Shown here piece by piece: positions 1,211 through 8,981 of a DNA stretch of 9,714 bases. Where the stretch lies: the NCBI GenBank assembly GCA_027016965.1, contig JALURI010000181.1, positions 1 through 9,714 of the forward strand. The letters run 5' to 3'. How positions within the stretch are numbered: the stretch's first letter is position 1; every line of letters starts with the position of its first letter. The notes beneath the pieces are model-generated. The model did no database searches. It was not told where the DNA came from and saw only the letters and a list, made by a program, of their open reading frames with translations. Made by a program: the position numbers and the translations under genes. The stretch is from Geoglobus sp. (GTDB lineage Archaea > Halobacteriota > Archaeoglobi > Archaeoglobales > Archaeoglobaceae).

Positions 1211-2164
1211 TCAAACCTCACTCCTCTCAACCCTTGCAGCCCTCATCAACTCAAGTGTTCTCCTCAGCCTTTCAGAGTCTCTTTTCTCTGCAATGGCATC
1301 AAGTTCAGCCCTGTAAGCTTCCATGTCAACTCCTCCTCTTTCGATGTAATCATCAATGAAATTCCTGTAAAGCCTGACAAGATCGTGTATAAGCGGCACG
1401 CTGTACTCCCTGCCCTGGATTTTAAGGCAGTCCACACCCCTGTCAATCATCTCAGGAATCTCATCAAGCATCAGAAACATGTCATTTGGCAGTCTGAAAT
1501 CAGATGCGTAGACTTTTTCACCGCAGAGCTTCCAGCCGAGAAGGCATGGTCTGAAGCACACCCCTCCTCTGTTCGGACTACCTATGTAATATGCTTTATC
1601 ATCGATCGTCTCGTATTTCAGGGATTTGTAACTGCTCATCCAGCATCTGCCGAGGTATGTGAAGTCAGTATTTGCATGAATCAGAACTTCAACACCGAGT
1701 CCAGTGTACTTCTTTATTTCAACCATCTCGTCAAGGCTCATCTTGCAGTCTGCAACAAACATGTCTGCTCCAGCTTCCCTGTAAAGCATAGCCTCATCCT
1801 TATTGAGAATGCTCGCTCCTATGCTTGCTACAATCTTCAGATCTGGATGCCTTTCTCTTGTTATCCTCATAAGACCGATATCGTTCAGGATTACTGCATC
1901 AATTTCCATGCTGTAGAGAGTGTCAAGTTTCTCAATGTACATTTTTTCCTCTCCCGGCTTTAACATCGCATTTATCGCTGCTCTGAGCATTCCTCCATGA
2001 TCGTGAGCGATTTTAACAGCCTTTCCAAGATCTTCATCGCTCATCTCGTACTTCTTGCTTCTTCTACTCCATCCTAAAACTCCTGCATAAACACTGTCAG
2101 CTCCAGCTCTGAAAACAGCCTCAATCATTTCAAGGCTTCCACCTGGACCGAGAAGTTCGACCAT
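1211..2164 (-). CDS. U32-family iron-sulfur protein, UbiU-like
   Basis: A 317-residue U32 protein ('peptidase U32' by old naming; characterised members are Fe-S hydroxylation or RNA-modification factors, not proven proteases). It opens MVELLGPGGSLEM, matching the UbiU-type start MELLCPAGNLPAL, and keeps AGADSVYAG, a VASIGAS strand, the GRCWMSSY segment (Cys174) and a late LKIQGRE motif, the counterpart of family KIEGR (about 247-253). Further cysteines are at 203, 207, 214 and 246. The family cysteine normally seven residues before GRC is absent (HANTDF instead of a GSLC-type loop), so any [4Fe-4S] cluster must use Cys174, Cys203 and two of 207/214/246. A longer frame reaches 2281, but those 39 residues lie inside the upstream gene. 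The ATG at 2164 sits four bases after its stop and just behind GGGGTGAT. Last gene of the U32 cluster, converging on the endonuclease gene. The exact role is unknown; UbiU-like partnership with the next gene is inferred. Confidence 0.85.
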   Translation of the reverse strand: MVELLGPGGSLEMIEAVFRAGADSVYAGVLGWSRRSKKYEMSDEDLGKAVKIAHDHGGMLRAAINAMLKPGEEKMYIEKLDTLYSMEIDAVILNDIGLMRITRERHPDLKIVASIGASILNKDEAMLYREAGADMFVADCKMSLDEMVEIKKYTGLGVEVLIHANTDFTYLGRCWMSSYKSLKYETIDDKAYYIGSPNRGGVCFRPCLLGWKLCGEKVYASDFRLPNDMFLMLDEIPEMIDRGVDCLKIQGREYSVPLIHDLVRLYRNFIDDYIERGGVDMEAYRAELDAIAEKRDSERLRRTLELMRAARVERSEV

Positions 2165-2168
2165 ACCA

Positions 2169-3035
2169 TCACCCCGGAATGTAGATCTGCCCTGCCCTGT
2201 TGAAATAGTAGCCATTTGCAAAGCCATTCTCTGAAATACTCTTAAGCTCTTCAAACTCAGACCTTGAAAACCCATTTTCAATTAGATGTCGGTATATCCT
2301 TCCTACCTTCTCTCTATATCCGATTCTCTCTGTAACAGCCTCGATTCTGAATGCATCGGAAAATCTCAGTTTTTCAATGTGCTCGTACATGCAAATATCC
2401 TTTCCGCTTAGGGTTGCATGTCCAAAGGGCTTTAAAACGAGATCCTCGCTCCTGAAAAACATCTCTTCCCTGCATATGTTCGGGCAATCCTTTCCAACCT
2501 CTGAAGAGAACTTTTTCAGGAAGCACTCATGTCCCACGCCAACAGGAATCTTTCCATGGACAACAATTTCGACCTCTACTCCTGTCTCCTTTATTTTTTC
2601 AATGTCCTCAATGGAAAGTTCGTATGCTGGCACAATCCTTGAAACCCCAATCGAGTAAAGAAGTTCTGCTGTTGAATCAGTGTAAATATTTGCAAGTCCT
2701 CCAGCTATAACCTTCACATCCGGATACTCTTTTGTGATATACCTTATAACTCCCAAGTTGCTTGCTTCGATACCATCGCTTATTTCAGCAGCAACATCTA
2801 TCACCCTGAAAACCCTCTTCAGATCCCTGTTTCTTGGGACGGCAAAGGTTGTAACGTATGCTTTCTTTTCCATAATGTGAAGAAGCTCTATGGCAGATGC
2901 CAGATCATCCCCACCTGTTATGAGATTTCCCTCATACTCCCAGCAGTATGGCATTCCAAGGTAAATGGAGTCATAAGGCTTTATGCTGCATTCACTCATA
3001 CTTTCAAGATTGGGAATGTTGGTTGTCAATTCCAC
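2169..3035 (-). CDS. U32-family iron-sulfur protein, UbiV-like
   Basis: A 288-residue U32 protein whose landmarks follow E. coli UbiV as I recall it. These are YLGMPYC (Cys31; UbiV YLGEAVC), an IEASNLGV strand (UbiV IEASDLGV), VVHGKIPVGVGHEC (Cys171; UbiV SYGHLPLAYSARC), then KDCPNIC (Cys184, Cys188) and a C-terminal NGYYFNRAG (UbiV NGYWRRLAG). The last three cluster cysteines are spaced 13 and 4, the same as UbiV 180/193/197, so a [4Fe-4S] cluster is very likely. The frame can start at a TTG at 3041, but that codon abuts GGGGGTGAT. The GTG at 3035 has this Shine-Dalgarno five bases upstream and is preferred. It overlaps the preceding U32 gene by 32 bases and ends four bases before the UbiU-like gene, so the two are coupled and probably form a heterodimer, as UbiU-UbiV do. 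The substrate is unknown: quinone precursor or RNA are the family precedents. Confidence 0.85.
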   Translation of the reverse strand: MELTTNIPNLESMSECSIKPYDSIYLGMPYCWEYEGNLITGGDDLASAIELLHIMEKKAYVTTFAVPRNRDLKRVFRVIDVAAEISDGIEASNLGVIRYITKEYPDVKVIAGGLANIYTDSTAELLYSIGVSRIVPAYELSIEDIEKIKETGVEVEIVVHGKIPVGVGHECFLKKFSSEVGKDCPNICREEMFFRSEDLVLKPFGHATLSGKDICMYEHIEKLRFSDAFRIEAVTERIGYREKVGRIYRHLIENGFSRSEFEELKSISENGFANGYYFNRAGQIYIPG

Positions 3036-3702
3036 TATCAATCACCCCCTCTCCATTTATCTGTCTTGTCTCATGCTTAATGTAATCAGCTTCAACATCA
3101 TAAAATCTCAATTCAGGTTTAAAGCTTGTTTCACATACTTTCTGTCCTGAATAAATCACATCCCATTTCACTGCGCATTCCATATTGCAAACTCCATCCT
3201 TTTTCACACTCTTTCCAGAGGCATAAATCGAGAGCTGGCATTTGCCTTTGTAAAACATCTCAACAAATACCCTTCCAAAAACCTCAATTTTTAAGTCTTC
3301 CTTTTCAAAGCTCTCAACCTCATAATTCAGCTCTGGGGGAATGACAACTGCATGAGCACCAAGCTCTTTGTAAAATCTCAGATCTAAATTGTTCATGGCA
3401 TTCATCCCCACGCTCACCGTCACTTTCTTGAATTTTGACACATTTGCTATTGCATAAAGTTCATTCAGAATGACATGTTCATGCCTTATTTTCCTGCAGA
3501 TCTTTATTAGCTCTTCTCCACCCTTAACTCTGTTCAGCGCAACAGCAACATCTTTCAGACTGTTTATTTCATCAAGTGTCAGAGACTTTTTGTCTGAATA
3601 CCTTGAGTAGCCTTTCAAACCAACAAATTTCACAGAATCTAACGATTTATAATGTTTTAAAAGGTTTCCTCTTTTTGGCTTTTCACCGAAAATCCGATAC
3701 AT
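3004..3702 (-). CDS. Short U32-related protein (minimal UbiU-like)
   Basis: About 232 residues from the ATG at 3702; UbiU is about 330. The order of motifs is still U32: DSVKFVGLKG near residue 23 (UbiU DAVYIGLK), a VTVSVGMNA strand about 95-103 (UbiU HVSVQASA), and IEVFGRVFVEMFYKGKC ending at Cys155. DGVCNMEC follows, with Cys172 and Cys176. Cys155 and Cys172 are 17 apart, as are the GRC and GAC cysteines of UbiU. The chain ends just after ADYIKHETRQ, where UbiU has the KIEGR motif, so the C-terminal subdomain is missing; the first strand is also shortened. A further Cys at 190 could complete a cluster. An ATG at 3735 would add 11 residues (FLYFYWDFWC), but it lies upstream of a TATA box whose expected transcription start is about 3702. 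The codon usage, intact frame and overlap with the UbiV-like gene argue for a working gene. Function unknown. Confidence 0.75.
   Translation of the reverse strand: MYRIFGEKPKRGNLLKHYKSLDSVKFVGLKGYSRYSDKKSLTLDEINSLKDVAVALNRVKGGEELIKICRKIRHEHVILNELYAIANVSKFKKVTVSVGMNAMNNLDLRFYKELGAHAVVIPPELNYEVESFEKEDLKIEVFGRVFVEMFYKGKCQLSIYASGKSVKKDGVCNMECAVKWDVIYSGQKVCETSFKPELRFYDVEADYIKHETRQINGEGVIDSGIDNQHSQS
3041..3049 (-). promoter_or_regulatory. Shine-Dalgarno of the UbiV-like gene, deciding for the GTG start
   Basis: GGGGGTGAT on the minus strand ends five bases before the GTG at 3035 and touches the rival TTG at 3041, which therefore is unlikely to be the start. Confidence 0.65.
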
Positions 3703-3720
3703 GCACCAAAAATCCCAGTA

Positions 3721-3732
3721 AAAATATAAAAA
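3721..3732 (-). promoter_or_regulatory. TATA box for the U32 gene cluster (leaderless start)
   Basis: On the minus strand this reads TTTTTATATTTT, a good archaeal TATA box in the junction between the HAD gene stop (3737) and the short U32 gene. Its centre is about 24 bases upstream of the ATG at 3702, the spacing expected for transcription starting on the start codon itself. No Shine-Dalgarno precedes that ATG. Readthrough from the HAD gene is also possible. Confidence 0.5.
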
Positions 3733-3736
3733 CATC

Positions 3737-4537
3737 CTATTTACCAGATCTCAGAGCAATTGAGAGATCGTAAAGGTCATCAAAAATAAAATCAGGAGTA
3801 GCACCGGTTTCCCTGACCTTTTCTGCATAGTTTTCCTGATTTGTGACACCTGACATGACAAGAATGCTCTTTATTCCTGCATTCTTTCCTGCCACGATGT
3901 CAACATCAATCTGATCACCTACAATCGCAACCTTCTCTTTGTCAACACCCAGTCGCTCTATCGCCTGATCGATAATGATTCTTGAGGGTTTACCAACAAC
4001 AACATCAGGCTGTTTGCCTGTCATCCAGTAAAGAGCACCGATTATAAGTCCTGTCCCAGGAATTGGCCCATCTTCTGCCGGAAAAACCCTGTCTGGATTT
4101 ACTGCAACATATCTTATCTCGTTATCCAATGCGAGCCTCAGTGCCTTTGTGAAAATTTCAAAATTGATTCCTCTGTTTGATCCGACTACAAGATATTCAG
4201 CATCTCTATAATCAACAAGCTCGTGTCCGAGATTCAGAAGTTCTTCTTTAAGACCATTCTCTCCGGTGGTGAATATTCTTGTCTTTCCACTCTCTTTGGC
4301 TATATAAACAGCAGTTGCATGAGTGGCGATAATCAGCTCACCCTCTTTCACCTCAAGCCCGAACTGTTTGAACCTCTCAAGCATTATCCTTCTGCTCCTG
4401 GTTGAATTATTGGAGACAAAAACAATCTTTATTCCAAGTTCCTTTATCATCCTGTATCCCTCAATTGCTCTCTCTATTGGCTTTCTGCCCCTTGAGATAA
4501 CACCATCTATGTCAAGTATGAGTCCTTCAACATTCAT
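3737..4537 (-). CDS. HAD superfamily subfamily IIA (NagD-like) phosphatase
   Basis: A 266-residue cytoplasmic phosphohydrolase with all HAD motifs. Motif I is LDIDGV (Asp9 nucleophile, Asp11), motif II is VFVSNNSTRS (Ser42), the motif III lysine is in VVGKPS (Lys183), and motif IV is GDQIDVDI (Asp208, with 211/213 for Mg2+). The C2-type cap lies between motifs II and III, which with the NNSTRS signature marks the HAD-IIA/NagD/p-nitrophenylphosphatase group. Archaeal members act on small sugar, glycerol or glycolate phosphates; the substrate here is not predictable. In-frame ATGs at 4576 and 4561 exist, but a TATA box at 4561-4571 makes the ATG at 4537 the natural leaderless start and leaves the usual short lead before motif I. 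The stop is one base from an alternative ATG of the short U32 gene, so the genes may be cotranscribed; whether the phosphatase belongs to the U32 pathway is open. Confidence 0.88.
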   Translation of the reverse strand: MNVEGLILDIDGVISRGRKPIERAIEGYRMIKELGIKIVFVSNNSTRSRRIMLERFKQFGLEVKEGELIIATHATAVYIAKESGKTRIFTTGENGLKEELLNLGHELVDYRDAEYLVVGSNRGINFEIFTKALRLALDNEIRYVAVNPDRVFPAEDGPIPGTGLIIGALYWMTGKQPDVVVGKPSRIIIDQAIERLGVDKEKVAIVGDQIDVDIVAGKNAGIKSILVMSGVTNQENYAEKVRETGATPDFIFDDLYDLSIALRSGK

Positions 4538-4560
4538 CAGGGACAGATCTTGCTTCAGCA

Positions 4561-4571
4561 TTATAAATATT
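4561..4571 (-). promoter_or_regulatory. TATA box of the HAD phosphatase gene
   Basis: Minus-strand AATATTTATAA, centred about 29 bases upstream of the ATG at 4537, consistent with a leaderless or near-leaderless transcript. It decides against the longer frame starting at 4576, which would begin upstream of the promoter. It lies back to back with the promoter of the khtT-like gene. Confidence 0.5.
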
Positions 4572-4583
4572 GGCATCGAAGAA

Positions 4584-4612: not shown

Positions 4613-5095
4613 ATGGTCAGGTTCATAGGTCTTGAAGGTGTTGGAACAAAATACGAGCTTGAAACAAGTTCTGGTGATAGAATTGCAGTCATATTCCTAC
4701 TGAATAAGAGGATACAGATATACATTCAGGAAAAATCCTGTGAGAAACCATGTTCTATCGAAATGAGTGAAACAGAGGCGAAAAGACTCTCATCAGTTCT
4801 TGGGGGTGTGCCTATAGAAAAGGAAAAGGAAAGTGTAGAGATCGACTTCATGGGAGTTCCAGACCTGACACTTGCGATGCACACCTATACGATAACAAAA
4901 AAACTTCATGGAAAGACAATTGAGGAACTTGCCATAAGGAAAAGGACGGGAGCAAATATTGTTGCTGTTTCGAGGGGTGGAAAGACCATAATAAGCCCAC
5001 CCCCCCATCTCATATTCGAGGAGGGGGACGTGATAGTGGTTATTGGTGATAAAGAGCAAATAGAGAGATTCGAAAGGGAAATTCTGGGGATATAA
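4613..5095 (+). CDS. KhtT-like RCK_C (TrkA-C) regulatory protein
   Basis: A 160-residue cytoplasmic regulator. Residues 1-67 match the KhtT/YhaT N-terminal domain (GLEGVGTKYELETSSGDRIA; UbiU-unrelated), with an acidic/serine patch and a SETEAKRLSSVLGG helix. Residues 77-158 form an RCK_C/TrkA-C domain: HGKTIEELAIRKRTGANIVA, then ISPPPHLIFEEGDVIVVIGD. There is no NAD-binding RCK_N Rossmann domain, so gating is likely through a small ligand at the RCK_C dimer, as reported for KhtT. The stop TAA is directly followed by the antiporter ATG (TAAATG), making a two-gene unit: regulator plus transporter. Two cysteines (43, 47) in KSCEKPC might sense redox state or metal, but this is speculation. A C7 run at 5000-5006 is in frame. 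Start chosen from the TATA box 25 bases upstream and the good family fit of MVRFIGLEG. Confidence 0.85.
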   Translation: MVRFIGLEGVGTKYELETSSGDRIAVIFLLNKRIQIYIQEKSCEKPCSIEMSETEAKRLSSVLGGVPIEKEKESVEIDFMGVPDLTLAMHTYTITKKLHGKTIEELAIRKRTGANIVAVSRGGKTIISPPPHLIFEEGDVIVVIGDKEQIERFEREILGI

Positions 5096-6208
5096 ATGGA
5101 CATAGCTCTTGCAGGGCTCATATGTGTAATTCTGGCTGTCATTTCAAAGAAGCTCTCTCTACCTTCTGTTCCATCTTACATTCTTGCGGGGCTGATTCTT
5201 GGATCTGGAGGTCTTGATTTACTCAGGGCAGATGAGGTTTCAAATGCTATTGCTGAAGCGGGAGTGATAATGCTTCTCTTCTACATTGGTGTAAATCTGA
5301 ATCCGAGAGAGATCTCTGAGAAAAAGGGGATGATATTTCACTCAGGGCTGTACGATTTTTTGATTAATTTTTCGCTCATTTATGCCATTTCATTTCTTGT
5401 CGGATTCAGTCATGTTCAGGCTTTTCTTGTTGCATCTGCCCTCTACATCTCAAGTTCAGCCATTGTTCTTCAATCTCTCATAGAGAACAGAAAGCTGATG
5501 TACAGAGAGTCTGAGATAGTGATATGGATAATGGTTTTTGAAGATATAGCTATCGCGCTTCTCATAGTCCTGAACAATCCTGAAAGTTCCGGTCTGTTTC
5601 TTTTCCTGGTGAAGATTCTGGTGTTCACAGCAATAACATACATGCTTTCCAATTACATGCCAAGACTGCTTGGGGGATTGTTTCAGAGAGAAGACGAAAT
5701 TCCAGCCCTTTTTGCATTTACAGTTGCCCTTCTTGGAATAGCCTTTGAGGAGTTTTTCCATATTCCCGCTGGATACACTGCAATAATGCTCGGTCTCATG
5801 CTTTCAGGTATAAAAAAGCTGAGAGAGATAATTCTTCCATTCAAGGATGTATTTCTTGTTCTTTTCTTCTTTTTCTTCGGAATTTCAGTAACCCTTTCTG
5901 CAGATGGGCTAATTCTTGGTTTAATATTTGCTGCTGTGGCTATTTCTGGAAAGGTAATATCAGGATTGATAACCGGAAGACATCTCCTCAAATCCTGGCA
6001 ATCGGGACTTGAGATTGGACTTGATACAGTTGCGAGAGGAGAGTTTTCAATCTTCCTCATATTCGCCTTTGGTATAGGGAAAGAGATTTCAACTGTGACA
6101 ACAGCGGTGATAATTACATCGATTTTAGGAGCATTCATGTCAAGGAACTCAGAGAGAATAATATCTCTCGCTTCCAGGATGGCTGAAAAGGTCAGCAAAA
6201 CTGAATGA
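5096..6208 (+). CDS. CPA2-family K+/H+ (cation/proton) antiporter, KhtU-like
   Basis: A 370-residue integral membrane protein with about 11-12 hydrophobic segments, from residues 2-18 to about 333-348. CPA2/Kef features seen: LPSVPSYILAGLILG (22-36), SSSAIVLQSL (119-128), FEDIAIALL with the probable ion-binding Asp150, the IPAGYTAIMLGLMLSG turn (223-238), FFFFGISVTLS (258-268) and the family VARGEFSIF motif (312-320). It lacks the C-terminal RCK_N domain of KefB/KefC; the RCK_C regulator is supplied by the separate preceding gene, the arrangement of the Bacillus KhtTU system. It is somewhat shorter than typical KhtU. Likely role: K+ or other monovalent cation efflux coupled to proton uptake at the cytoplasmic membrane, controlled by the upstream protein. 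Na+ specificity cannot be excluded. The ATG abuts the upstream stop; GGGGAT just before may serve as ribosome binding site. The 3' end overlaps the convergent mqnC by 17 bases. Confidence 0.88.
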   Translation: MDIALAGLICVILAVISKKLSLPSVPSYILAGLILGSGGLDLLRADEVSNAIAEAGVIMLLFYIGVNLNPREISEKKGMIFHSGLYDFLINFSLIYAISFLVGFSHVQAFLVASALYISSSAIVLQSLIENRKLMYRESEIVIWIMVFEDIAIALLIVLNNPESSGLFLFLVKILVFTAITYMLSNYMPRLLGGLFQREDEIPALFAFTVALLGIAFEEFFHIPAGYTAIMLGLMLSGIKKLREIILPFKDVFLVLFFFFFGISVTLSADGLILGLIFAAVAISGKVISGLITGRHLLKSWQSGLEIGLDTVARGEFSIFLIFAFGIGKEISTVTTAVIITSILGAFMSRNSERIISLASRMAEKVSKTE

Positions 6209-7253
6209 TGTTGTAGTAAGTGTCTCGTCTTGCAGGAATTCTGCCGGCTCTCTTTATTGCAGAGATTATCTCATCAACCTGTACAGGCCTGAATTCCTTT
6301 CCTGTTGCTTTTACAACATTTTCTTCAAGCATAACCCCCCCAAAGTCGTTTGCACCAAAGTCAAGAGCTAAAACAGCTATGTCCATTCCCTGCGTAAGCC
6401 ATGATACCTGAATGTTTTTTATATTGTGGAGAACGATCCTTGAAATAGCAACAATTCTGAGATAATTGAGAGGTGAGGCTGGCTCCTTCACAAGGTCATA
6501 CAATTCTGTCATCCCCGGCTGAAAGCTCCAGGGAATGAATGCTGTGAAGCCATTTGTTCTTTTCTGAAGATCTCTGATCTTAAATAAGTGCTCCACCACA
6601 TGCTTCTTGTTCTCTACATGCCCGAACATCATCGTTGCAGTTGTCTTTATTCCAAGCCTGTGGGCTGTTTCCATGACCTGAAGCCATTCTTCGGATGTGC
6701 ATTTGTTGCTTATCTTATGCCTGATTTCATCAGACAGTATCTCAGCTCCTCCTCCTGGTATTGAGTCAAGCCCAGCATCCCTGAGCCTTGAGATTGTCTC
6801 TTCAACACTCATTCCTTCCATTCTTGCCAGATAAACTATTTCCGGTGGAGAAAGGCTGTGAATGTCAACCTCAAATCTTCTCTTTATTTCCCTGAAAAGA
6901 CCCTCAAACCACTCAATCCCAAGCTCAGGATTTATACCTCCCTGAAGCATTATCTGGGTTGCATCTTGCTCAACAGCCTCCGCAACCTTTCTCAGAATTT
7001 CATTGTAGCTCAGAACATACGCTTCCCTGCTGTTTTTTGCATAGAAAGCACAGAACCTGCATCTTGAAATGCAAACATTTGTATAGTTTATGTTTCTGTC
7101 TATGACAAATCCAACAACATCCCCGCATCTTTCCTTTCTTATTCTGTTAGCCATGTATCCAAGCTCATAAACTGGAAGGCTGAATAGCTCAAGCGCATCA
7201 TCAAAGCTGATGTTCTCTCCATTCAGATTTTTCTCAATGTAATCTGTGTTCAT
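6192..7253 (-). CDS. mqnC: Cyclic dehypoxanthine futalosine synthase (radical SAM)
   Basis: A 353-residue radical SAM enzyme that cyclises dehypoxanthine futalosine in the futalosine pathway to menaquinone. The SAM cluster motif is CISRCRFC (Cys61, 65, 68; CxxxCxxC) within NYTNVC. MqnC-type signatures follow: MLQGGINPELGIEWFE (102-117), HSLSPPEI, GLDSIPGGGAEIL (161-173), TTATMMFGHVE, TNGFTAFIPWSFQP (233-246), VSWLTQG and GANDFGGVMLEENVV. The LQGG and PWSFQP motifs separate it from MqnE, which has HIVG and PLxFHPENT. Length is normal for the family. The ATG at 7253 overlaps the mqnA end by 20 bases and has GAGGA eight bases upstream. Last gene of the operon. A G7 run (minus strand of 6335-6341) lies in frame. 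The 3' end runs 17 bases into the convergent antiporter gene, leaving no room for a separate terminator. Confidence 0.95.
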   Translation of the reverse strand: MNTDYIEKNLNGENISFDDALELFSLPVYELGYMANRIRKERCGDVVGFVIDRNINYTNVCISRCRFCAFYAKNSREAYVLSYNEILRKVAEAVEQDATQIMLQGGINPELGIEWFEGLFREIKRRFEVDIHSLSPPEIVYLARMEGMSVEETISRLRDAGLDSIPGGGAEILSDEIRHKISNKCTSEEWLQVMETAHRLGIKTTATMMFGHVENKKHVVEHLFKIRDLQKRTNGFTAFIPWSFQPGMTELYDLVKEPASPLNYLRIVAISRIVLHNIKNIQVSWLTQGMDIAVLALDFGANDFGGVMLEENVVKATGKEFRPVQVDEIISAIKRAGRIPARRDTYYNIIQFC

Positions 7254-7977
7254 CTACAAGTTCCTCAAAAACGTTAAGACTTTTAATCTCTTTCCTACCT
7301 GCCTCATGGATGAGTTTGGAAAAGTAGATTGAAAGAAATTCAGAGGGCATCCTGAATTTAAGACTTGCAATTTCAACGATCTCATCCTTCATCTCCATTC
7401 CTTTCCTGTATGAATATATCACATCTCTGTCTATTGCTTTTCCGTGCTCAAAACCTCGCTTTGAGGTTGCAATTCCAAAAACTGCTGGCAAACCTGTTAT
7501 TTCCTTCCACTCTTCACCTATGTCCATCACAACCCTGAAAACCATTCTGGCTTTTATTGCCTCATCTCCAATTATCATAACGTGATTGAACTCTCGCAAG
7601 ACGTCCATAAAATTACCATCAGTGATAACAAGTCTGTTTATCATCCCCCTCTCTCTCCTTATTATCTCGAGCATCCTTGATGATGTCATGGATTTTGATG
7701 TTACTGCTATTGGCGAGTCATCGAGTCTCTTTCTTCTTGATACCACAACAACACTGAAAACCTCTCCATCTGATGAAACGCAGAAGTTGTGGCAATCAAG
7801 AATGTCTTTTTTCTGGATGTAGAAATATGATGGGACAGGAGCGTAAACGATATCTCCTCTGAGTATCATTTCTGAAAGTTCTCTTGGAGAACTCTCCACA
7901 ACCTTATATTTACCCTCCTTTTCAATCTGGTAATAGGGAAGAAAATTGTTTATTAGACCAAACTTTCCGATTTTCAA
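7234..7977 (-). CDS. mqnA: Chorismate dehydratase
   Basis: A 247-residue protein of the MqnA (former DUF178) periplasmic-binding-like fold. It catalyses the first futalosine-pathway step, chorismate to 3-[(1-carboxyvinyl)oxy]benzoate, in the cytoplasm. Features: KIGKFGLINNFLPYY at the N-terminus, RGDIVYAPVPSYFY (40-53), SSDGEVFSVVVVS (68-80), KSMTSSRML (95-103), MIIGDEAI (134-141) and EEWKEITGLPAVFGIA (155-170). MqnA rather than MqnD is chosen from the GDEA and W..TGLP..FG pattern and the pairing with mqnE and mqnC. The start is TTG at 7977, supported by GGAGGTG with a five-base spacer and by the four-base TTGA overlap with the mqnE stop. The chain lacks signal-peptide or membrane features. 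It is cotranscribed with mqnE and mqnC, so substrate and product enzymes are made together. Confidence 0.9.
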   Translation of the reverse strand: MKIGKFGLINNFLPYYQIEKEGKYKVVESSPRELSEMILRGDIVYAPVPSYFYIQKKDILDCHNFCVSSDGEVFSVVVVSRRKRLDDSPIAVTSKSMTSSRMLEIIRRERGMINRLVITDGNFMDVLREFNHVMIIGDEAIKARMVFRVVMDIGEEWKEITGLPAVFGIATSKRGFEHGKAIDRDVIYSYRKGMEMKDEIVEIASLKFRMPSEFLSIYFSKLIHEAGRKEIKSLNVFEELVDEHRLH

Positions 7978-8981
7978 TTCAACACCTCCAGAGTGTTGAA
8001 AAATGCGTCTCTCTCAGCAGGTATTTTTCCAGCATTTCTTATCATGCTCACGAGCTTTTCTTTTGTAAGTGTTGCAGGCGTTTTTGCCCCTGCTGAATGG
8101 GCTATTCTCTCCCCCATCACAGTTCCATCAACATCATTTGCCCCGTAATTTAATGCGATCTGGGCGAGTTTTTCCCCCATCATGACCCAGTAGGCTTTTA
8201 TTCCCATAAAATTGTGCAATGCCATCCTCGAAACCGCAATTGTTCTGAGAATGTCCTGAGGAGATGCTCTGCTTAAATGGCTGAATGATGTATTTTCGGG
8301 ATGGAAGACAAGAGGTATGAAGGCAACAAATCCACCTGTTTTTTCCTGAAGCTTTCTGAGCTTTTCAAGATGTATTGCTCTGTCTCTAAAACTTTCAATA
8401 TGCCCGAAGAGCATAGTTGCATTGCTTCTCAACCCAAGCTCATGGGCTGTTTCCATAACCCTCAGCCATGTTTTGGAATTTGCTTTGTCAGGAGATATCT
8501 TCGTTCTAACTCTTTCAACCAGAATCTCCGCACCACCACCTGGAAGCATGTCCAAACCAGCATCTCTGAGTCTCGAGAGAAACTCTCTGATGCTCATCTT
8601 CTCCTTTCTGGCATAGTAATGAACCTCTGTGGCTGTCAATGCTTTTACTGCAACTCCGTTTCCTCCTCTTTTTCTGATTTCTCTCAGGATGCTCTCAAAA
8701 TACTCCACGCCAACTTCCGGATTGTGACTCCCGACAATGTGAAGTTCCCTTGCACCTGCATTGATCGCTTTCAATGCATCTCTCACAACATCCTCGACCC
8801 TCATCAGATATCCTGTATCCCTGTAATAGGCGCAGATTGGACACTTTGATACACAGAAATTCGTGTAGTTTATGTGCTTGTTAACAGAAAAGGTTGCAAT
8901 TCTGCCATTTATCTCATCAGCCTTTCTTCCGAGTTCGTGTATGTTCTGATAAAAAAGATCCTCAATCTCGTTTACGCTCAA
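7974..8981 (-). CDS. mqnE: Aminofutalosine synthase (radical SAM)
   Basis: A 335-residue radical SAM enzyme joining the MqnA product to adenosyl to give 6-amino-6-deoxyfutalosine. The cluster motif is CVSKCPIC (Cys43, 47, 50) inside INYTNFC. MqnE signatures: ELHIVGSHNPEVGVEYFE (79-96), KALTATEVHYYAR, GLDMLPGGGAEIL (142-154), RSNATMLFGHIES (185-197), GGFVAFIPLVFHPENT (216-231), IKAYWVMMGE and GANDVDGTVMGERIAHSAGA. SHNPE replaces the more usual GLHPD-type loop, a minor variation. The start is a TTG at 8981 with GGAGGT nine bases and GAGG three bases upstream. No ATG or GTG gives a sensible N-terminus. It overlaps the glycosyltransferase gene by 20 bases and the mqnA start by 4. It shares a common ancestor with MqnC, which accounts for the sequence similarity between the two genes. 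Confidence 0.95.
   Translation of the reverse strand: MSVNEIEDLFYQNIHELGRKADEINGRIATFSVNKHINYTNFCVSKCPICAYYRDTGYLMRVEDVVRDALKAINAGARELHIVGSHNPEVGVEYFESILREIRKRGGNGVAVKALTATEVHYYARKEKMSIREFLSRLRDAGLDMLPGGGAEILVERVRTKISPDKANSKTWLRVMETAHELGLRSNATMLFGHIESFRDRAIHLEKLRKLQEKTGGFVAFIPLVFHPENTSFSHLSRASPQDILRTIAVSRMALHNFMGIKAYWVMMGEKLAQIALNYGANDVDGTVMGERIAHSAGAKTPATLTKEKLVSMIRNAGKIPAERDAFFNTLEVLN
7983..7989 (-). promoter_or_regulatory. Shine-Dalgarno of mqnA, supporting its TTG start
   Basis: GGAGGTG on the minus strand, inside the end of mqnE and five bases before TTG. It is a near-perfect match to the archaeal 16S rRNA 3' end and explains efficient initiation at a weak codon. Confidence 0.75.

Follow-up and report, generated by a model that had tools for sequence, protein, structure and literature searches.

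A trio of U32 protein genes in Geoglobus: a predicted three-component relative of the UbiU-UbiV hydroxylase

Three adjacent U32 genes and their kinship to UbiU and UbiV

The window analyzed here, a stretch of 9,714 nucleotides from the heat-loving archaeon Geoglobus sp. (GCA_027016965.1, contig JALURI010000181.1), carries on its minus strand three consecutive genes for proteins of the U32 family, named S, V and U below. We predict, with a probability of roughly 55%, that S-V-U is one functional unit and a three-component relative of the O2-independent hydroxylase UbiU-UbiV. That the three genes form a unit is near certain, and since the trio is conserved across loci, the three-component system proposed in the first-pass annotation is likely, as is an oxidase-like function for it. 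We infer the cluster content of the proteins, the hydroxylation with its donor and substrate, and the S-V-U complex itself.

S (3004..3633) encodes 209 residues from a GTG start at 3633, V (2169..3035) encodes 288 residues and likewise starts with GTG, and U (1211..2164) encodes 317 residues from an ATG. As first claimed, these are three distinct, consecutive U32 paralogues: all exceed the gathering cut-off of the Pfam Peptidase_U32 model (PF01136, 22.4 bits), with 128.1 bits for U, 108.5 for V and 48.3 for S (scored as the longer frame 3004-3735). They had also been described as overlapping, which is true of V and S, sharing 32 bases, and not of V and U, set 4 bases apart. The nearest U loci are from Geoglobus, at 90-91% identity.

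In a mixture-model tree of 67 rows (among them 19 V, two UbiV, and 38 U, S and Aromatoleum-type proteins), V and UbiV were joined with support of 100/99. V did not fall inside the UbiV clade and was its sister, with a clade of its own (100/97; UbiV is represented by only two rows). U, S and the Aromatoleum-type proteins came together at 100/98, and the split of U, S and UbiU from the rest was weak (93/76; 86 by the Shimodaira-Hasegawa-like approximate likelihood ratio test in a larger quick tree). Topology tests rejected V, U and S as one clade (p 0.008), which rules out that the trio arose by its own duplication, separately from UbiU and UbiV. A grouping of U with UbiU that leaves out S was rejected as well (p 0.005), and a single origin of S was not (p 0.35). 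Because of this tree and these clade rejections, we read the trio as one UbiV-side protein, V, and two paralogues, U and S, which probably belong to the UbiU side and neither of which would be UbiU itself. The initial description of V as UbiV-like is therefore borne out by its tree position and its four cysteines. That of U as UbiU-like survives only as a weakly supported place on the UbiU side, as a sister clade together with S, given the rejected U-UbiU grouping. Relative to the four reference proteins, V goes with UbiV, and U and S are, with weak support, nearest to UbiU and not to TrhP or RlhA, but none of the three lies inside UbiU or UbiV.

Against the NCBIfam models, V reached 75.1 bits for UbiV (NF047965, cut-off 275), and U and S reached 108.2 and 37.9 bits for UbiU (NF047963, cut-off 440). 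The best NCBIfam match of U was TrhP (120.7 bits, below cut-off), so, judged on profile scores only, U lies closer to TrhP than to UbiU. Since all three proteins remain far below the equivalog cut-offs and U scores higher on TrhP, the trio is not a strict UbiU/UbiV pair. These scores are also what speaks for an RNA base hydroxylase, in which the trio would make 5-hydroxy-pyrimidine in tRNA or rRNA, as do TrhP and RlhA. TrhP nearly equals UbiV on V as well (73.8 vs 75.1 bits, both below cut-off), and the trio is the whole U32 set in four of the nine genomes searched (G001, G002, G003 and G009), which therefore hold no separate RNA-type U32. However, the tree places V with UbiV and, more weakly, U and S nearest to UbiU, the neighbors scanned include a single RNA-modification gene, for an RNA methylase some 5 kb from the trio in L021, and the patchy spread fits an optional pathway. 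We consider this the least probable of the alternatives weighed here.

The distances of the S, V and U proteins correlate with one another (Mantel r 0.90-0.96, 42 trios), with none of 2000 permutations as high. In a Thermoplasmata trio, L037, the nearest relative of all three proteins is the NC10 locus L012, as if that trio had moved as a unit.

Cluster ligands, predicted folds and known U32 systems

The ligand residues of V are those of UbiV. Its C31, C171, C184 and C188 (codons at 2943-2945 for the first, 2472..2525 for the others) correspond to C39, C180, C193 and C197 of E. coli UbiV, named as cluster ligands (PMC6747719). The spacings of 13 and 4 given in the first-pass annotation agree with the E. 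coli record sequence, and the first cysteine lies far upstream, as in UbiV. All four are present in 70/70 V rows and in both UbiV rows, and a fifth cysteine in 69/70 V rows.

The U motif (1544..1666) comprises D167, C174, C203 and C207, preceded by E159, and does not match the UbiU ligand set of C169, C176, C193 and C232. Over 62 U rows the second and fourth cysteines are invariant, the first position holds Cys (50 rows) or Asp (12), and the third likewise holds Cys (39) or Asp (23). Taken together, 27 rows read CCCC, 23 CCDC and 12 DCCC, and two Asp never occur together. The DCCC set consists of the nine Archaeoglobales loci, the window, L051 and L059. In S, the motif E-x6-C-x16-C-x3-C (3175..3261) provides E125, C132, C149 and C153, with Glu at the position of TrhP C170. 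This first position is Glu in 35 of 43 trio rows and Gln in one (L037), while seven rows from Aquificota, Hippea/Campylobacterota and their kin have a Cys one residue earlier; S-type genes unlinked to V-U (see below) have Glu in 9/9.

A glutamate is essential in TrhP (E162) and RlhA (E161), and so is the first cysteine (C170 and C169, respectively; PMC6599085). The equivalent of the former is kept in 62/62 U rows at -15, and in trio S rows at -15 (36/43) or -16 (the other 7). At the place of the latter the window has Glu in S and Asp in U, and given that this cysteine is essential in both enzymes, its replacement is a true departure. The carboxylate putatively binds iron.

The AlphaFold models of S and U, built from shallow alignments, have a mean predicted local distance difference test score (pLDDT) of 78.0 and 82.7, respectively, with low values in the motif loops. 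Among solved structures, both models match the U32 protein Mk0906 (PDB 5d88) best; this protein is called uncharacterised in PMC11574389. The likeness in sequence is weak: a search of solved structures returned 5d88 as the sole U32 match, with E values of 0.0011 for U and 0.08 for V. The next fold matches of the U model, after the U32 structure, are isocitrate-lyase-type barrels. Together with the Glu or Asp within the ligand motif and the coenzyme A (CoA)-linked neighbors described below, these would fit a different chemistry, in which S-V-U, by virtue of a carboxylate-ligated cluster, would act on acyl-CoA as a lyase, dehydratase or reductase. We hold this improbable, since the U32 enzymes of known chemistry hydroxylate, as far as the available text of the cited literature goes, and the essential Glu of U32 hydroxylases is kept.

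Compared with UbiU-UbiV, the anaerobic ubiquinone hydroxylase of Pseudomonadota, the trio shares the adjacency of U32 genes, a V that is sister of UbiV with the same four cysteines, and a U/S side that is sister of UbiU with weak support. It differs in having three proteins, in a U without the cysteine set of UbiU and with either Asp or Cys as its first motif residue, and in gene order, being S-V-U whereas ubiV is reported to follow ubiU (PMC11707229). With the prephenate-dependent RNA hydroxylases TrhP and RlhA it has in common the U32 motif, the Glu at -15 and the other three motif cysteines; these are, in contrast, single proteins with an essential first cysteine, on separate branches of the tree. 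A further group, PepU32#6 of Kimura et al., has as reference D5MIQ1, a protein that we take to be from an NC10 bacterium. Its cysteines are reported as only mildly or poorly conserved (PMC6747719), which the alternation of Cys and Asp in U would produce, the comparison being by description only; the available part of that paper does not describe the group as a trio member.

Spread and gene order of the trio

The loci compared are the best 80 of 113 obtained when named genomes were scanned with the U alignment. The S-V-U trio is kept in 9/9 Archaeoglobales loci and also occurs in NC10, Acidobacteria, Aquificota, Bacillota, Chloroflexota, Campylobacterota and one Thermoplasmata archaeon. V lies beside U in 68/80 loci (67 by script, plus L067, where the gene listing has a V frame overlapping the match). 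V and exactly one further U32 gene stand beside U in 43/80 loci, in the order S-V-U; V and at least two further U32 genes in 13/80 (11 of Aromatoleum/Azoarcus/Rhodoblastus type, L051 and L060); and V-U alone in 12/80, 10 of these titled Deltaproteobacteria. In the 12/80 loci that lack V beside U, the sequence before U is shorter than 700 bases in nine and 1249 bases long in L062, and it leaves plenty of space in L059 and L069. Five of these 12, a Rokubacteria-type group (L061, L062, L065, L069 and L077), have no V after U either; as the genomes of two of the five hold a single U32 gene, a U-like protein can occur by itself.

An unlinked S-type gene was found in 9/10 of the V-U-only genomes tested, the exception being G068. 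S was the best-scoring model for all nine, and the six placed in a tree, from which the long-branch S of L011 was left out, all group with S (95/82). The short third U32 had been thought to have no known counterpart. This does not hold, since longer S counterparts occur in many phyla, and with the unlinked S genes it rules out S as an invention of the Archaeoglobales. No description of an S-V-U trio was found in the literature searched, whose matches were judged mostly from abstract openings.

Within one archaeal order the trio is nearly all-or-none. The order of G001 (the genome that carries Geoglobus locus L001) was represented by 57 species genomes. Exactly three U32 matches, all next to one another, occur in 12 of them; in G033, S and V sit at the end of a contig; five genomes have one other U32, and 39 have none. 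Four order genomes without V or S (L098-L101) hold a single U-like U32 scoring 172-241 bits against the U profile. The phylum of G009 (NC10 kin) was sampled with 79 genomes; 33 of them contain at least one U32, and 18 contain the trio, as judged by position alone. The other 15 comprise four with four-gene sets, G083 with three genes on two contigs, one with two genes and nine with one. G080 and G150 have the trio and a further four-gene set, and G115 the trio and four more genes on two contigs.

Larger sets were seen as well. The Aromatoleum/Azoarcus/Rhodoblastus quartet (L067-L079, about 10000-17600) consists of one V and three further U32 proteins with a CPGKC-type motif. Its neighbors include an NMT1-type binding protein and a PPDK-like protein of about 980 residues, and in eight loci an aminotransferase fused to a phosphatase domain lies upstream. 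Plasmid records compared with an Aromatoleum-type protein numbered 227, all below 60% identity and at 27-30% among the 20 matches listed, and 'U32' is absent from two papers on anaerobic benzene. The chloroflexotal locus L051 (9151-13971) has five tandem U32 genes, including a second, very diverged V.

Predicted function and neighboring genes

UbiUV hydroxylate without O2 (PMC10470549) with prephenate as reported oxygen source (PMC11574389), and TrhP and RlhA require prephenate (PMC6599085). By analogy, V would be the UbiV-side subunit with a four-cysteine [4Fe-4S] site, whose cluster may relay electrons. In U and S, which keep the TrhP/RlhA Glu, one cluster ligand would be a carboxylate, supplied by Glu in most S and by Asp in archaeal U, and the clusters of U and/or S could offer a weakly ligated iron as the binding site for substrate or donor. 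Prephenate or another organic donor of this kind would supply the oxygen, the product would be a hydroxylated small acid or CoA ester, and a neighboring acyl-CoA ligase and hotdog thioesterase might help to make or release it. That the substrate is an acyl-CoA or an aromatic acid, and the donor prephenate, is a reasoned guess drawn from the neighbors and from UbiUV, TrhP and RlhA. The fuller proposal, of an undescribed, widespread three-subunit enzyme with three Fe-S clusters (at most two of them Glu/Asp-ligated) that hydroxylates aromatic or acyl-CoA substrates without O2 with prephenate as donor, is tentative, and we regard it as somewhat doubtful.

An acyl-CoA ligase is near the trio in 15/80 loci, on the same strand for 13/17 copies and at a median distance of 457 bases. 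In the five loci in which its family was checked (L011, L021, L027, L031 and L045), long-chain-fatty-acid, acetate and benzoate models lead, mostly with matches below their cut-offs. A 4HBT hotdog thioesterase gene directly follows U in L011, L016, L021, L033 and L054; a PaaI-type one follows U in L004, L006 and L128 and is one gene further in L007; and the FlK type was found in L001, L003, L027, L050 and L061. In the order of G001, strong FlK matches are present in 5/57 genomes, all trio-positive. The p of 0.0002, not corrected for kinship, overstates the evidence, because only 2/5 are near the trio and 4/5 belong to Geoglobus-type relatives. Upstream of the trio on the same strand, the acidobacterial loci L018, L027 and L050 carry a DAHP-synthase/chorismate-mutase fusion, a prephenate maker; its family was seen in L027 and assigned by similarity in L018 and L050. 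Class III CoA-transferases, an IclR regulator and a Liv-type transporter (named from the gene pattern alone) are also among the neighbors, and two clusters of neighbor proteins in NC10 and Acidobacteria (clusters 48 and 63) gave no family match. Benzoyl-CoA metabolism was ruled out, as BcrAD-type matches do not track the trio and 3/12 trio-positive genomes have none.

Several observations weigh against a three-component hydroxylase. U-like proteins occur without V in L059, L069, other Rokubacteria-type loci and L098-L101. The neighbors differ between phyla, and in 4/12 trio-positive order genomes (G018, G020, G023 and G036) a strong FlK match is missing and no PaaI-type gene was seen near the trio. 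Prephenate supply does not discriminate, CM_2 being found in 49/57 order genomes and in 11/12 of the trio-positive ones. Unlike in UbiTUV, no UbiT-type gene stands beside the trio: no SCP2 match was found there in 20 trio-type genomes. SCP2 proteins are present in 17/22 genomes tested, in trio genomes at other places, and 11/12 trio-positive order genomes have SCP2 genes away from the trio. The S model is of intermediate quality, and its motif loop falls partly below a pLDDT of 50. Since the first cysteine, which TrhP and RlhA cannot do without, is absent from S as it is from archaeal U, S might play a purely structural part. G007 and G008 also have a separate UbiU/UbiV-type pair, and an SCP2 gene adjoins these UbiUV loci.

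The window itself brings in menaquinone. From about 2.6 kb upstream of the trio, 6192-8981 on the minus strand holds an mqnE-mqnA/D-mqnC run, genes of the futalosine route, of which MqnC is over its NCBIfam cut-off, MqnE below it (393.1 of 434.55 bits), and the middle gene assigned by Pfam only. The trio might then tailor quinones, hydroxylating menaquinone or a futalosine intermediate as an optional decoration, as UbiUV, its precedent, does for ubiquinone. MqnE and MqnC are also near the trio in Thermodesulfobacteriota L021, and MqnC is over cut-off in 16/18 trio genomes tested across phyla. However, MqnC is about as frequent without the trio, both in the order of G001 (11/12 with the trio vs 35/45 without a complete trio, p 0.43) and in the phylum of G009 (17/18 vs 47/61, p 0.17), and an mqn-type gene is near the trio in only four of the 80 loci plus the window (L002, L021, L033 and the window). 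Menaquinone thus does not need the trio and is ruled out as its obligate substrate, and the first-pass argument against menaquinone was right in effect. As an optional decoration, quinone tailoring is the foremost of the alternatives, and still an unlikely one.

The U32 oxidases, which hydroxylate without O2, have been recognized as a family only recently and their mechanism is still being worked out, and a three-protein version with natural Cys-to-Glu/Asp exchanges offers ready variants for probing the role of the cluster. The occurrence of the trio across archaea and bacteria points to an as yet undescribed anaerobic reaction, and the split between UbiU and UbiV is possibly older than ubiquinone biosynthesis. 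If a three-component hydroxylase is indeed encoded here, it would be a new route of anaerobic C-H hydroxylation common to archaea and many bacterial phyla.

For the gene starts, the earlier position of 3702 for S is probably wrong, as 21/23 other S proteins listed start at the residue that corresponds to GTG 3633 of the window and a conserved upstream box favors the same start; U begins at ATG 2164 and not at TTG 2281. The box, a TATA-like TTTTAAAA at 3655..3662 on the minus strand, has identical bases in Geoglobus loci L001-L003 and a variant in L004 and L130, and presumably represents an archaeal promoter. As it lies about 25 bases upstream of the homologue-supported GTG, a leaderless S-V-U message is likely. 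A sigma-70/terminator scan of the region gave five promoter-like matches vs 4.8 expected and zero terminator-like ones.

Directly upstream of S, the window has a HAD-IIA phosphatase gene (3737-4576), far below the cut-off of the TK1734 2-phosphoglycolate phosphatase model and, among the loci compared, beside the trio only here and in L002. It is followed on the plus strand (4613-6208) by a TrkA-C domain protein and a CPA2-type antiporter, which look like a split K+/H+ antiporter pair. At 2-1087, and at 10995-12906 of L001, lie probable restriction-modification genes, named from their motifs (a methylase of TSPPYW type with a companion gene). In the deltaproteobacterial loci L034 (7355-8362) and L043 (7691-8281), V-U is immediately preceded by Roadblock and Ras/Arf-like GTPase genes. 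A protein of 516-521 residues is encoded beside the FlK gene in 3/3 Geoglobus-type loci (L125 5312-6877, L126 7885-9435 and L127 201-1751); the L126 copy has no NCBIfam match.

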